64,000 bases of DNA from Nitrospirota bacterium (lineage in GTDB: Bacteria > Nitrospirota > Nitrospiria > Nitrospirales > Nitrospiraceae): positions 1 to 64,000 of the forward strand of contig JACRLR010000061.1 of the NCBI GenBank assembly GCA_016219645.1, read 5' to 3'. A program made the translations under genes and the position numbers. Every line of letters begins with the position of its first letter. Within the stretch, counting starts at the first letter, position 1. Below are positions 8,402 to 57,781 of the stretch, in pieces. Under the pieces are notes generated by a model. It saw nothing but the letters and a program-made list of their open reading frames with translations, was not told the DNA's origin and ran no database searches.

Positions 8402-8869
8402 AGGAGGAAAATGGTAGCACGAGGCTTGTCCCCTACCAAGGAAAGGGAGCTTTGGTGCGACCTGATTGCAGGATGCTGAAAAATGGGTGGGGGTGGCCTG
8501 GCCGTCCTCCTGCTTGCGGAACGCGCACGATCAGAATGTGCTCGTTCGACGCGCGCACTCGAGGAGCGACCAGGCTACCCTTGAAAGTGAAATAGGGGAT
8601 TGGAAAGCCGTGTGCAATTGGGATCATCCCAGCCATCCCTTGGTGAGTGATAGTTCGCTGAGGCCTTGCCTGAGGAACGGCGCGCCAAGATGCGCCTGGT
8701 CCCGAGCAAGGCCGCAGACGATTCGAAACCGGAGGCGTACCCTCTGGGGCGTACGGTGCGACGAATAAGGAGCACCACGTCTGTGCGCGCCGCCGAGTGG
8801 TGAGGCGGTCGTCTCCCCGTTGAGGATTTCAATGAGCCAAGAACGAAGCTGGTGGACGTGTTCATACTG
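8402..8869. other. Intergenic mosaic of repeat fragments
   Basis: No gene is seen in these 468 bp. It starts with a fragment of the MITE-like family (GCAGGATGCTGAAAAA at 8468-8483), runs into a full copy of the covarying hairpin family (8491-8580), then contains the short palindrome TGGGATCATCCCA near 8622, and near 8680-8766 a second fragment with GGCGCGCC, GCAAGGCCGCAG and GGAGGCGTACCCT that matches parts of the copies at 12.1 and 46.8 kb. It looks like a site where repeats have landed on one another. Confidence 0.6.
8491..8580. repeat. Covarying hairpin family, copy 1
   Basis: The outer arms GGGTGGCCTGGCCG (from 8491) and CGACCAGGCTACCC (to 8580) pair with one G-T wobble and one mismatch. 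The 51-nt core (8509-8559) matches the copy at 57704-57754 almost perfectly and those at 41532-41582 and 48635-48685 clearly. Inner pairing is GAAC with GTTC and GCAC with GTGC around the loop GATCAGAAT. Confidence 0.8.
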
Positions 8870-12087: not shown

Positions 12088-12212
12088 GCAGGATGCTCAA
12101 AAAGGCTGTCCAGCAAGGCCGCAGCGAGTGAAGGCCCGAGGCGTACCCTTGCGGTACGTTGAGGGTCTGAACGATGCGAGAACGATGCTGGCGGACTTTT
12201 TCAGCATCCTGC
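12088..12212 (-). repeat. MITE-like palindromic repeat, copy 1
   Basis: A 125-bp element bounded by GCAGGATGC and GCATCCTGC, with imperfect terminal inverted repeats of about 27 bp (GCAGGATGCTGAAAAAGTCC against GCAGGATGCTCAAAAAGGC). The interior has a smaller dyad around a GGTACGTTGAGGG/GTACC segment. It is closely similar, in inverted orientation, to 62951-63074. Its edge overlaps the stop codon of trpS. It carries no ORF and no transposase. Confidence 0.85.
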
Positions 12213-40778: not shown

Positions 40779-41507
40779 ATGCCCACGCCCATTCTGCATG
40801 TGCAACGTCTGGTCAAACAATTTGGCGAATTCTTCGCCGTCAACGATATTTCGTTCGACATCAGACCGGGAGAAATTCTTGGATTGCTGGGTCCAAATGG
40901 AGCGGGGAAGACCACCACGATTCAGATGCTGCTCGGGGTCGTCACACCGACTGCCGGATCCATTCAGATGTTCGGGCTCGATCTGGCGACTGATCGAGAG
41001 AGCATTCTGCAGCAAGTGAATTTTTCCTCGACCTATGTCTCATTGCCGCAGGCGCTCACGGTAGAAGAGAACCTCTGGGTGATTGGGCGGTTGTATGGTC
41101 TGTCTCAGATTCGAGAACGAATCAATGACATCGTGAAGCGGCTCGAGATGGAGGAGTTTCGTCATAAAGTGACGCGCAAGCTTTCTTCCGGGCAAAGCAC
41201 TCGACTTGGGTTGGCCAAAGCGTTTTTGACCGATCCGAAGATCCTTTTTCTCGATGAGCCGACGGCGAGCCTGGATCCTGATATCGCACAAAAGATTCGG
41301 AGCTTTCTCAAGGAAGAGAGACAGTCGTCCGGGCTGAGCGTCCTCTATAGCTCACATAATATGCACGAGATGGAAGAGATGTCGGATCGAATCATCTTCC
41401 TTCAGCGGGGAAAGATTGTGGCAGAGGGGACGGCGCAGGAGATCGTGGCGCGGTTTGGGCAGGCAGATTTAGAGGAAGTGTTTGTGAAGTTGGCGCGGGA
41501 GAAATAA
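40779..41507 (+). CDS. ABC transporter ATP-binding protein
   Basis: A 242-residue ABC ATPase of the ABC-2 exporter class. Walker A is GPNGAGKTT, the Q-loop falls near FSSTYVSLPQ, the signature is LSSGQSTRLGLAKAFL (LSSGQ, a normal variant), Walker B is KILFLDEPTASLDPDI, and the switch His is in YSSHNMHEME. The start at 40779 matches the usual N-terminus (ILHVQRLVKQFGEFFAVNDI); 22 codons upstream are open without similarity. It pairs with the permease gene 146 bp downstream, with a large hairpin between the two. NodI and drug or polysaccharide exporters have this form; the substrate is unknown. Confidence 0.92.
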   Translation: MPTPILHVQRLVKQFGEFFAVNDISFDIRPGEILGLLGPNGAGKTTTIQMLLGVVTPTAGSIQMFGLDLATDRESILQQVNFSSTYVSLPQALTVEENLWVIGRLYGLSQIRERINDIVKRLEMEEFRHKVTRKLSSGQSTRLGLAKAFLTDPKILFLDEPTASLDPDIAQKIRSFLKEERQSSGLSVLYSSHNMHEMEEMSDRIIFLQRGKIVAEGTAQEIVARFGQADLEEVFVKLAREK

Positions 41508-41509
41508 GA

Positions 41510-41606
41510 GGGGGGCGATGGGTACGGTTCCCTTGCTCCCGGAGCGCGCACGATCGGAATGTGCTCGCTCGACGGCCGCAGGGGGAACCATACCCATCGC
41601 CCCCCC
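41510..41606. repeat. Covarying hairpin family, copy 2
   Basis: The outer arms GGGGGGCGATGGGTACGGTT (from 41510) and AACCATACCCATCGCCCCCC (to 41606) pair almost perfectly, a stem of over 20 bp that starts 3 bp after the ABC ATPase stop codon. The arms share nothing with those of copies 1, 3 and 4. The core (41532-41582) aligns with theirs without gaps; here the inner pair is GAGC with GCTC instead of GAAC with GTTC. Confidence 0.85.
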
Positions 41607-47216: not shown

Positions 47217-48596
47217 TCAGGACGCCATAGTCTGATCTGGGTCAATGCCATACTGCTTGATGAGGCGGGCAAGGTAAGTCCGTTGCAATCCGAGCCGGGC
47301 TGCGGCTTTTGTTTGGTTGCCACATTCCTCGCGAAGCGCGAGGAGTATGAGGGTGCGTGTGTGTTCTTTCATCGATTCATGGTATGGGAGCGAGAAATAG
47401 GATAGGCGTTCGCCCGTCGAGCTATGGCCGATGGCATCCAACGACAGCATGTCCGGTTCGATGGTATCCGACTGGTTCAAGACAACGGACCGCGCGACGA
47501 CGTTCTCCAACTCACGGATGTTCCCTGGCCAACGATATCGACCCATGGCCTCCATGGCAGCGGGGCTGAACATCATACCTGGACGCTTCGCATCCCTGGC
47601 ATGCCGGTTCAAAAAAAACTTGGCCAGGGCAGGGAGATCATCGGGCCGCTCGCGAAGCGGGGGAAGAGTGAGGCCGATGACGTTCAACCGGAAAAAGAGA
47701 TCCTCGCGAAACTCACCGTTCTTCACGGCCTGCCGGAGATCCTTGTTCGTGGCTGCGATGACCCGTATATTGATCGACACGAGTCTTGTGCCCCCGACTC
47801 GATGAAATTCCCTGTCCTGGAGCACGCGCAACAGTTTGGCCTGCAGTGGGAGCGACATGTCTCCGATCTCGTCCAGGAAGATCGTCCCCCCATCGGCCAT
47901 TTCCAGTTTGCCCTTTTGCAGGCGATCTGCACCGGTGAAGGCGCCGCGTTCATGTCCGAAGAGTTCGTTTTCGAGCAGCGTTTCCGTGAGGGCGACACAG
48001 TTAATGACCACCAGCGGCATGGCTTGACGAGGGCTCCACTGGTGGATAGAACGGGCGAAGAGTTCCTTCCCGGTGCCGCTTTCGCCGAGCAGCAACACAC
48101 TGGCATCGGATCTGGCGGCGCGTTGGGCGGATTCCAGCACTGTGCGGATCTTCGCGCTGATACCCACGATCGAAGCATAGCGGCTGTCGACCTCGGATTT
48201 GAGACAGGCCACCTGCCGTTTGAGAGAATCTCGTTCCAAGGCTTTGCTGATCACGAGGAGGAGGTGGTCGTTGTCCAGCGGCTTGGTCAGAAAATCATAG
48301 GCGCCGGTTTTCATGGCCTCGACGGCAGCATCGATCGAGGCATGGGCTGTCATGACGATGACCGGGAGATCCTCAGTCGGTCTGACTTTAGGGAGCCGCT
48401 TGAGGACTTCGATGCCGGTTAAACGCGGCATGTCCAGATCGAGCAACATGAGGCCCGGAGCCTCCTGCTCGACCAGTTCGAGCGCCTGCACCCCGTCCTG
48501 TGCAATCACGGTTCGGTAGTCGGAGGCCTGCAGACGATCCTCCAGCATGGTGACAATATCAGGATCGTCGTCGACGATAAGGATTTTCGCTTTCAT
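47217..48596 (-). CDS. Sigma-54-dependent response regulator (NtrC family)
   Basis: A 459-residue transcription activator. The receiver domain begins KILIVDDDPDIVTML, with the acceptor Asp in LMLLDLDMPRL and Lys in FLTKPLDNDH. The AAA+ domain has Walker A LGESGTGKELFARSIH, the sigma-54 contact loop GAFTGAD, Walker B GGTIFLDEIGDMSL and the R-finger region. The C-terminal Fis-type helix-turn-helix reads NQTKAAARLGLQRTYLARLI. It activates RNA polymerase with sigma-54 when phosphorylated. The start is ATG 48596 after GGAAGGGCAAC. A large hairpin repeat lies just 15 bp upstream of the start, so it would be in the leader of any message read through from the DUF1015 gene. No cognate kinase is adjacent. 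Confidence 0.93.
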   Translation of the reverse strand: MKAKILIVDDDPDIVTMLEDRLQASDYRTVIAQDGVQALELVEQEAPGLMLLDLDMPRLTGIEVLKRLPKVRPTEDLPVIVMTAHASIDAAVEAMKTGAYDFLTKPLDNDHLLLVISKALERDSLKRQVACLKSEVDSRYASIVGISAKIRTVLESAQRAARSDASVLLLGESGTGKELFARSIHQWSPRQAMPLVVINCVALTETLLENELFGHERGAFTGADRLQKGKLEMADGGTIFLDEIGDMSLPLQAKLLRVLQDREFHRVGGTRLVSINIRVIAATNKDLRQAVKNGEFREDLFFRLNVIGLTLPPLRERPDDLPALAKFFLNRHARDAKRPGMMFSPAAMEAMGRYRWPGNIRELENVVARSVVLNQSDTIEPDMLSLDAIGHSSTGERLSYFSLPYHESMKEHTRTLILLALREECGNQTKAAARLGLQRTYLARLIKQYGIDPDQTMAS

Positions 48597-48610: not shown

Positions 48611-48708
48611 CGTGGGAGGGTGAGGATGATTCCAACTGCGCGCGTCGAGCGACCACCGTTTTATCGTGGGGGCTCCGCGAGCAAGGGAATCGTCCTCACT
48701 CTCCCACG
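48611..48708 (-). repeat. Covarying hairpin family, copy 3
   Basis: The arms CGTGGGAGGGTGAGGATGAT (from 48611) and ATCGTCCTCACTCTCCCACG (to 48708) pair over 23 bp with two positions that pair only as wobbles on the + strand. The element is inverted relative to the others: its core is the inverse complement of 48635-48685. Inner pairs are GAGC-GCTC and CCAC-GTGG. It begins 2 bp after the DUF1015 stop codon and ends 15 bp before the regulator start. Confidence 0.85.
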
Positions 48709-48709
48709 T

Positions 48710-50029
48710 CTACTCCATCACGTTCATCACCAGTCCGGTCAGCGGCTTCGGGAAAAAATACGTCGACTTGTGCGGCATCCGTTCTCCCGCTGTCGCCACA
48801 GCTTGCACTTCGCTGACCTTGGTGGGATTGAGGAGCAAGGCTGCCGTTCCGGTTCCGTCTGCCACCCAATCCAGTGCCTCATGATCGTCTTTGGTGTAGA
48901 GGATCGCCTCTTGTTCCTGTTGCGTCGGGCAGATTGTCGTGACGACCAGTTGCTGGAGGAGAGAGACATCGAGCTTCGCGCGAGGCGACGCGCTCGATTG
49001 CGGGCGGTGGGTCGGTTTGAGGGCCAACGTGAGGTATGAATCTGTTCCCTTCACGGCTAGGCCGAACATCGGAACCGTGCGGCCGTTGGTTCGCAAGGCC
49101 TCAATGAATTGCGCGCGGACCGCCGCTCTGGTTCCAGAGATATAGGCGAATTCATGCAGGTCAAACTGTTCGGCGAAGAGGGCTCGCAGCTTGTCATAGG
49201 GAGGGAGTGGCGTGGTCGTGACTCGATGGGTCGGCAAGACGGTGAGTCCCGGGTCTTCGAGGGCGGCCAGCAACATCAGTACGCCGTCGTAGGGCTGGTA
49301 TCCCGCTGGTGATCCGCCCTGTTGCCGGCGCAGCCGTTGATAGTTCAGCGCTGTTTCGTAGCGATGGTGGCCGTCCGCGATGAAGAGTGGCTTGGGGCCC
49401 ATCGCGTCGACGGTCTGGGCGAGAACCGTTGGGTCGGTGACGGCCCATAGTTGTTGCCGGAATCCCACGTCATCGGCAAAATCGAAACGAGCCGGCTTTC
49501 CCTTGACGGCTGCTTCGAGGAGCCCGATCACGACGTTCTGGGGATCTGAATAGAGAGACCAGATCGGGCTGAAATTCGTGTGGCAGGCTTCGAGCAGATT
49601 CAGGCGATCCGTTTTTGCCGCAGCCCGCGTATTTTCATGCGGATACACATGACCGGAGTCAAGGGCTTCCAGTTTCACTGTGGCAAGAAAACCTTTCAGT
49701 GTCTTCATCGGGGTCTGAGAGTCTGCTCCGGGCGGGCGATAGTCGATGGTGTGGTAATACAGGGTGGGTTGCGCATCGCGTTTCAGAGCTCCGCTTCGGA
49801 GCCATTCATGGAGAGTCGCCCCGGCCCGCGTGTAGCGATTGTTCGCAGGGTTATCGCCGGGCTGGTCGAGACCGAGCTCCAGGCGGATGATATTCTGTGG
49901 ATGGCGGTTGTAGAGGGCCTGTTGCCCTGCGGCATCGATGATATCGTAGGGAGGGGCAACGACCCGGTCGACGTCTCCGATCACCGACGTGTCGTAGGCG
50001 GTTCCGTGAAACGGAATGATTTTGGCCAT
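48710..50029 (-). CDS. DUF1015 family protein
   Basis: A 439-residue protein of the DUF1015 family, common in bacteria and of unknown biochemical function. The start AKIIPFHGTAYDTSVIGDVD and VVAPPYDIIDAAGQQALY are typical (P-F-x-A-x-R-Y then VxxPPYDVI), as are NIIRLELG, DRLNLLEACHTNFSPIWSLY and the conserved FIADGHHRYETALNY near residue 215, whose DGHHRYET could be a metal or nucleotide site. The family is soluble and cytoplasmic. The gene lies between a polyprenyl synthase gene (125 bp upstream) and the sigma-54 regulator gene, all on the minus strand. Confidence 0.9.
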   Translation of the reverse strand: MAKIIPFHGTAYDTSVIGDVDRVVAPPYDIIDAAGQQALYNRHPQNIIRLELGLDQPGDNPANNRYTRAGATLHEWLRSGALKRDAQPTLYYHTIDYRPPGADSQTPMKTLKGFLATVKLEALDSGHVYPHENTRAAAKTDRLNLLEACHTNFSPIWSLYSDPQNVVIGLLEAAVKGKPARFDFADDVGFRQQLWAVTDPTVLAQTVDAMGPKPLFIADGHHRYETALNYQRLRRQQGGSPAGYQPYDGVLMLLAALEDPGLTVLPTHRVTTTPLPPYDKLRALFAEQFDLHEFAYISGTRAAVRAQFIEALRTNGRTVPMFGLAVKGTDSYLTLALKPTHRPQSSASPRAKLDVSLLQQLVVTTICPTQQEQEAILYTKDDHEALDWVADGTGTAALLLNPTKVSEVQAVATAGERMPHKSTYFFPKPLTGLVMNVME

Positions 50030-57550: not shown

Positions 57551-57680
57551 TTCGACTGCGGCCCTATGCGGGTCCGGTCACGGCGAACAGCACCCCGCGC
57601 GCTTACCCCGCGCCCGGTGTAGGAAAGAGTCGCGGCCCGTTTGTCCCTTGTGCTCGCAGAACGCGCGGTCTCAGAAGGAC

Positions 57681-57781
57681 GGGAAGGGCAGCCTGGCCGT
57701 CCTCCTGCTCGCGGAACGCGCACGATCAGAATGTGCTCGTTCGACGCGCGCAATCGAGGATCGACCAGGCTACCCTGTTCC
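57681..57781. repeat. Covarying hairpin family, copy 4
   Basis: Outer arms GGGAAGGGCAGCCTGGCCG (from 57681) and CGACCAGGCTACCCTGTTCC (to 57781) pair with few mismatches and are related to the arms of copy 1. The core is 57704-57754: GAAC/GTTC and GCAC/GTGC around loop GATCAGAAT, as in copy 1. Confidence 0.85.

Follow-up and report, generated by a model that had tools for sequence, protein, structure and literature searches.

The 64,000-nucleotide stretch analysed here (the window; positions 1 to 64,000 of contig JACRLR010000061.1 in assembly GCA_016219645.1, Nitrospirota bacterium) carries four copies of a hairpin, the focal one of which, copy 2, lies directly behind the stop codon of the gene at 40779-41507. 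Each unit is about 90-100 nt long and is composed of a 47-nt core, self-complementary arms of about 20-25 nt per side and a short tail. The features are as follows:

8491-8580, + strand: copy 1, subfamily A hairpin, core 8511-8557, arms common to copy 4
8608-8639, + strand: right half of an outer D-type hairpin (CCGTGTGCAATTGGGATCATCCCAGCCATCCC), split by copy 1 and with its left half lost, as read from the sequence
41510-41606, + strand: copy 2 (focal), subfamily B hairpin, core 41534-41580
48611-48708, - strand: copy 3, C-type hairpin, core 48637-48683
57651-57678, + strand: left half of an outer core (TGCTCGCAGAACGCGCGGTCTCAGAAGG), in the loop of which copy 4 sits
57681-57781, + strand: copy 4, subfamily A hairpin, nested, core 57706-57752

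A search of the window with a model of the core recovered exactly these four copies at E <1e-14, the remainder being weak reverse-strand echoes of three of them, and the coordinates given in the initial annotation were upheld. Its ungapped alignment of the four cores was likewise borne out, as were three compensatory base pairs, numbered there as 8/44, 13/37 and 17/33 and corresponding to 6/42, 11/35 and 15/31 in the 47-nt core. It had also been observed, correctly, that copies 1 and 4 have similar arms, that those of copies 2 and 3 resemble neither these nor each other, and that all four copies lie between co-directional genes; copy 1, however, is antisense relative to both of its neighbours, and copy 3 is positioned between the stop of the gene at 48710-50029 (-) and the start of that at 47217-48596 (-). 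Other nests of an A-type within a D-type hairpin are known besides that of copy 1. At gathering score, Rfam identified two tRNAs alone in the window and no family at the hairpin sites, and a relaxed scan returned microRNA models far under threshold, as any long hairpin would give.

The length of the core is practically constant across copies, and 8 of the 17 pairs assigned to its stem change on both sides. Its covariation score is 0.264, versus 0.096 +/- 0.012 when shuffled and 0.01-0.08 when the pairing partners are slid. Since shuffles take no account of relatedness, an unsupervised ranking by mutual information was added (138 distinct cores, effective number 15), in which the top seven corrected pairs (11/35, 8/40, 9/37, 6/42, 17/30, 15/31 and 17/29) each belong to the stem in one or the other of two registers. 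The covariation of the core is real and far above chance. RNAalifold gave a weak consensus for the aligned cores, a result of the shift by one in helix register at the tip, and pair counts on the assigned structure were used instead. A 2-nt bulge and two mismatches hardly change between copies, and at the unpaired positions 4, 14, 32, 38, 39 and 44 the base is shared by 103-105 of 105 distinct cores; variation is seen at positions 10-12 and 34-36, with compensation at 11-12 and 34-35. Such fixed irregularities within a covarying stem point to specific recognition.

With regard to the arms, complementarity to the own partner has a median score of 14.5, compared to 3.5 when arms are mixed between copies. 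Single-linkage clustering at 72% identity distributed 151 copies of the source genome over 47 arm clusters, 36 of them singletons, and most copies belong to arm families; the suggestion that the outer arms are unrelated thus holds for copies 2 and 3 but not in general. In some copies, such as L295:1501 and L300:2112, recombination has joined arms that do not match.

A covariance model of the 47-nt core, proposed as a check in the initial annotation, detected at least 150 copies of the superfamily in the source genome, which is Nitrospira-like (71 contigs totalling 3.65 Mb, with ratings of 100% for completeness and 4.3% for contamination); per-copy statistics refer to the 151 copies listed for this genome. 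Among 198 genomes sampled from the phylum, the hairpin was found in 43 of the 47 that belong to the same family, G174, G185, G194 and G217 lacking it, and in none of the other 151, so that in this sample the superfamily is confined to the bacterial family of Nitrospira. This is a real and unusually well-documented covarying repeat superfamily, whose copy number, family-wide distribution, nesting and folding strand had been understated initially. No hairpin match was obtained in phages or plasmids and viral contigs held no match to two exact core patterns, and the hairpin was also absent from five contigs of Nitrospirota or related bacteria retrieved through a glutamate-synthase search, which thus offered no empty site for comparison. 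A description of this superfamily was not found in the open-access literature; a 2025 survey places Nitrospira moscoviensis among the genomes with REP candidates, which may or may not belong to this superfamily (PMC12306157).

Because the gene calls come from a simple method based on codon usage, counts of genomic position are approximate. On these calls, 2 of the 151 copies were located inside predicted genes; with at least 150 copies, the hairpin is thus both high-copy and extragenic, as REP-like repeats are. Between co-directional genes 72 copies are sense and 15 antisense, while 26 copies lie between convergent and 24 between divergent genes. Cores lie a median of 48 nt past the stop codon, which places the start of the arm some 25 nt behind the stop. 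In relatives, sense and antisense copies number 33 and 16, and leading and lagging copies, as determined by third-position GC skew, 36 and 31, with no replication-strand bias; insertion on the lagging strand, tested in this manner, was rejected. The orientation of the hairpin tracks transcription, not replication.

Hairpins are also found within hairpins. A left half-core is present just upstream of 28 copies, and 18 copies are flanked by the two halves of an outer core that shares their orientation, against a single doubtful case in the opposite orientation. Three loop inserts have no counterpart in the orthologous hairpin of a second species: a B-type in a C-type hairpin at the copy-3 gap of genome G225 and a C-type in a D-type hairpin at the copy-2 gap of G017, both of which have an uninterrupted orthologue, and a C-type in a D-type hairpin of G256, the loop of which is empty in G253. 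In the last comparison TCAGAAG flanks the insert twice and occurs once in the empty loop; this 7-bp insertion-site repeat is clean only here, other C-in-D cases having diverged and B-in-C nests having none. Certain composites, among them A in D, are found repeatedly and may be mobilised as a whole, and the nests are therefore not all independent. It would appear that REP-like repeats insert into each other's loops.

Comparison of orthologous sites revealed two modes of persistence. In the gap occupied by copy 2, a hairpin lies directly behind the stop codon in five species, with a core of type B here, type C in G011 and G253 and type D in G024 and G017; in every case the arms are complementary to each other, scoring 11-21 with their own partners and mostly lower, 3.4-13.6, across species, those of G253 scoring 11.0, no better than with the arms of G011. 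The copy-3 hairpin is 97-98% identical to its counterparts in G005, G003, G010 and G253, compared to 73-88% for the aligned gene flanks (the downstream flank of G253 aligns improperly), and its identity is 89% in G257 and 79% in G023; other species carry other palindromic spacers in this gap, and G007 carries none. The conservation of copy 3 above its flanks, together with the hairpin retained in the copy-2 gap of five species, suggests host selection beyond mobility, and indicates that single copies can be retained for long, one by sequence and one by fold alone; horizontal exchange of the copy-3 hairpin between species may also have taken place. The earlier view that folding is kept rather than sequence thus finds support both within the genome, from covariation, and at orthologous sites, from own-arm pairing. 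In the gap orthologous to copy 3 between a histidine kinase and a response regulator (L209-L231), palindromic spacers such as GGTCAATGGTCAAC or CAGCTATCAGCC repeats of similar length were also noted in other species.

Isolated arm mismatches, defined as those flanked by two standard pairs on each side, are distributed asymmetrically: on the core-sense strand of the source genome there are 110 A.C and 22 G.T, or 63 and 14 when each five-pair context is counted once (p=1.4e-8), and the corresponding figures in relatives are 45 and 5, or 35 and 5 per context. The excess is equal for sense (56:11) and antisense (11:2) copies and, being unchanged by gene orientation, is explained neither by selection on mRNA nor by transcription-linked mutation, which was rejected as its source when splitting the copies by gene orientation changed nothing. 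On the complement, A.C mismatches read as G.T pairs, and G.A and A.G take the place of the fixed T.C and C.T mismatches. Of the two strands, the complement gives the better fold in 134 of 151 copies with DNA parameters and in 112 of 151 with RNA parameters. Since A.C prevails over G.T whatever the gene orientation, the strand selected to fold would be the complement of the core-sense strand, and selection is likely to act on this folded complement. The mismatch asymmetry amounts to strand-specific selection of the fold, recognition of the fold itself being predicted. As a dispersed bacterial repeat that combines covariation with a measurable strand preference, the superfamily provides a clear natural case and makes it possible to test from sequence whether REP-like repeats function as single-stranded DNA or as RNA, a question of long standing.

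The observed structure, covariation, strand asymmetry, nesting, insertion polymorphism and conservation at one locus are probably to be read as the marks of non-autonomous, REP/BIME-like mobile palindromes of the family of Nitrospira that are recognised as a folded single strand, some of them later retained by the host. What is recognised would be the complement of the core-sense strand in its folded state, single-stranded DNA being the most likely form, and binding would occur through the invariant mismatches and bulge, so that the arms would need pairing alone and could drift with compensation. New units would insert between genes, for the most part shortly past a stop codon and in the direction of transcription, and would also enter the loops of hairpins already in place, matching their orientation; certain copies would subsequently be kept by the host. 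We infer single-stranded DNA rather than RNA, and a protein that recognises it. The initial annotation had offered three options, of which the non-autonomous single-stranded element fits best in view of the dispersed copies, the orientation-locked loop insertion and the strand-specific fold; the initial interpretation as a whole was supported in part, an RNA-processing signal being disfavoured. Counting against mobility, no transposition was observed, and an orientation that follows transcription is unlike the lagging-strand signature of single-stranded transposition.

The second option, a new structured RNA, is still compatible with the data if such an RNA is made from the complement strand, whether as antisense small RNAs or as a mobile RNA copied back into DNA, although this appears rather unlikely. 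The G.T pairs of the complement would be G.U in RNA, G.A mismatches are common in RNA, and the complement is the better folder with RNA parameters too. However, the strand difference is at least as strong with DNA parameters, the hairpin sites lack an Rfam family at gathering score, and the reverse-transcriptase domain RVT_1 was not found in the 100%-complete source genome nor in most hairpin-rich relatives, being absent from G000, G001, G011, G017, G018, G225 and G253.

It is less likely still that the hairpins are host-selected intercistronic mRNA elements, which would protect or process the mRNA from a position behind the stop codon. Such a role would agree with the sense bias (72:15) and the short distance from stop to core, with a copy 3 that is conserved beside more divergent genes, and with the maintenance of a hairpin in the copy-2 gap of five species; yet the mRNA bears the A.C-mismatch strand, antisense copies are no different, copies nest in one another, and no T-tract follows copy 2. 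An RNA-processing signal is disfavoured because the strand selected for folding is usually antisense to the neighbouring genes and the asymmetry is independent of gene orientation, while a function in mRNA may still hold for single loci.

Returning to mobile palindromes recognised as folded single strands, the question arises of which enzyme would move them. REPs are extragenic, high-copy, imperfect palindromes with fixed mismatches that lie near stop codons and fold in a strand-specific manner, and some REP dimers sit within other palindromes (PMC8266576, PMC3733652). The hairpins resemble the REP, BIME and REPIN elements of E. coli, Pseudomonas and Stenotrophomonas, which are associated with TnpA-REP/RAYT, in being extragenic, abundant, close to stops and arranged in mosaics, in their conserved mismatches or bulge, and in their strand specificity, one strand being recognised in REPs and a strand-specific fold being selected in the hairpins. 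In contrast to REPs, which measure 20-40 bp, they are about 100 nt long, have a core of constant length and arms of free sequence, nest in their own loops in one orientation, lack a GTAG/CGTC tag and have no Y1 transposase nearby, several genomes being without any. Thus, the hairpins are REP-like in several respects, which falls short of REP identity.

It is very unlikely that the hairpins are genuine REPs whose movement depends on a REP-associated tyrosine transposase (RAYT/TnpA-REP, PF01797), even though they display the REP traits described above and the source genome encodes one such protein (L039 919-1860, - strand, 313 aa), its sole PF01797 gene. PF01797 matches were obtained in 41 of the 69 family genomes, and no fewer than ten genomes with hairpins lack one (G001, G017, G020, G100, G147, G150, G156, G176, G200 and G223), including the single-contig G176 and the 99% complete G001, absence in drafts being weaker evidence; conversely, G174, G185 and G217 possess PF01797 and no hairpins. 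Hairpins were absent from the surroundings (about 1.5 kb) of each of 31 PF01797 loci, and among 139 copies the core-sense foot bears GTAG in 3, GTGG in 9 and CGTC in 1 (GTAG or CGTC in just 4 of 139), the complement foot 0, 1 and 0, respectively. Across the 69 genomes neither RAYT nor reverse transcriptase tracks the hairpins, and both were rejected as mobilisers; a tyrosine-HUH transposase or a reverse transcriptase, as envisaged initially, is therefore not needed, since hairpin-rich genomes exist without both. REP-like repeats can thus be abundant across a bacterial family even in genomes that lack the transposase usually credited with their spread. The mobilising enzyme may have been lost after the spread of the hairpins. 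On a more tentative reading, an enzyme that is neither Y1-HUH nor reverse transcriptase might read the mismatches and bulge of the folded complement and insert these self-nesting hairpins into loops in fixed orientation, so that selection would act on folding and leave arm sequence free.

Least credible of all is an origin without mobility or selection, in which palindromes are made and perfected by template switching during replication, for although this could yield complementary arms of any sequence and the copy-2 site arms have changed jointly with their partners, it would erase the mismatches and bulge that are invariant in the 105 distinct cores, gives no reason for A.C over G.T and leaves the dispersed near-identical cores unexplained.

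As mobile palindromes the hairpins may also be compared with other systems. Like the CGTC-tagged REPs (Di Nocera 2013), they are palindromic repeats without a known dedicated transposase, but they are far larger and carry no CGTC foot tag; the survey of those REPs does not mention the family of Nitrospira (PMC3733652). With integron attC sites they share a folded bottom strand, unpaired bases and a structure that is kept while sequence is free; unlike attC sites, they do not hold AAC/GTT triplets in the core, where positions 10-12 and 34-36 vary, and they are dispersed between chromosomal genes and not arranged in a cassette array. They resemble MITEs in being small, dispersed and intergenic, with one clean 7-bp repeat at insertion, but differ from those with terminal inverted repeats in that their arms vary from copy to copy and no terminal repeat is conserved.

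A separate 125-bp element is located at 12088-12212 of the window and has GCAGGATGCTCAAAAAG/CTTTTTCAGCATCCTGC as its terminal inverted repeats; the same ends enclose copy 1 and a number of A/D hairpins at other sites, and its terminal-repeat motif lies near the start of the PF01797 gene on L039, the association of this element with PF01797 genes being at background level over the 31 loci. Finally, behind D2-type units on L283, L318 and L299 come the tail AACGAGCAAGCTTGGAGGG and an outer core's right half, giving the impression that unit, tail and half core had moved as one composite.
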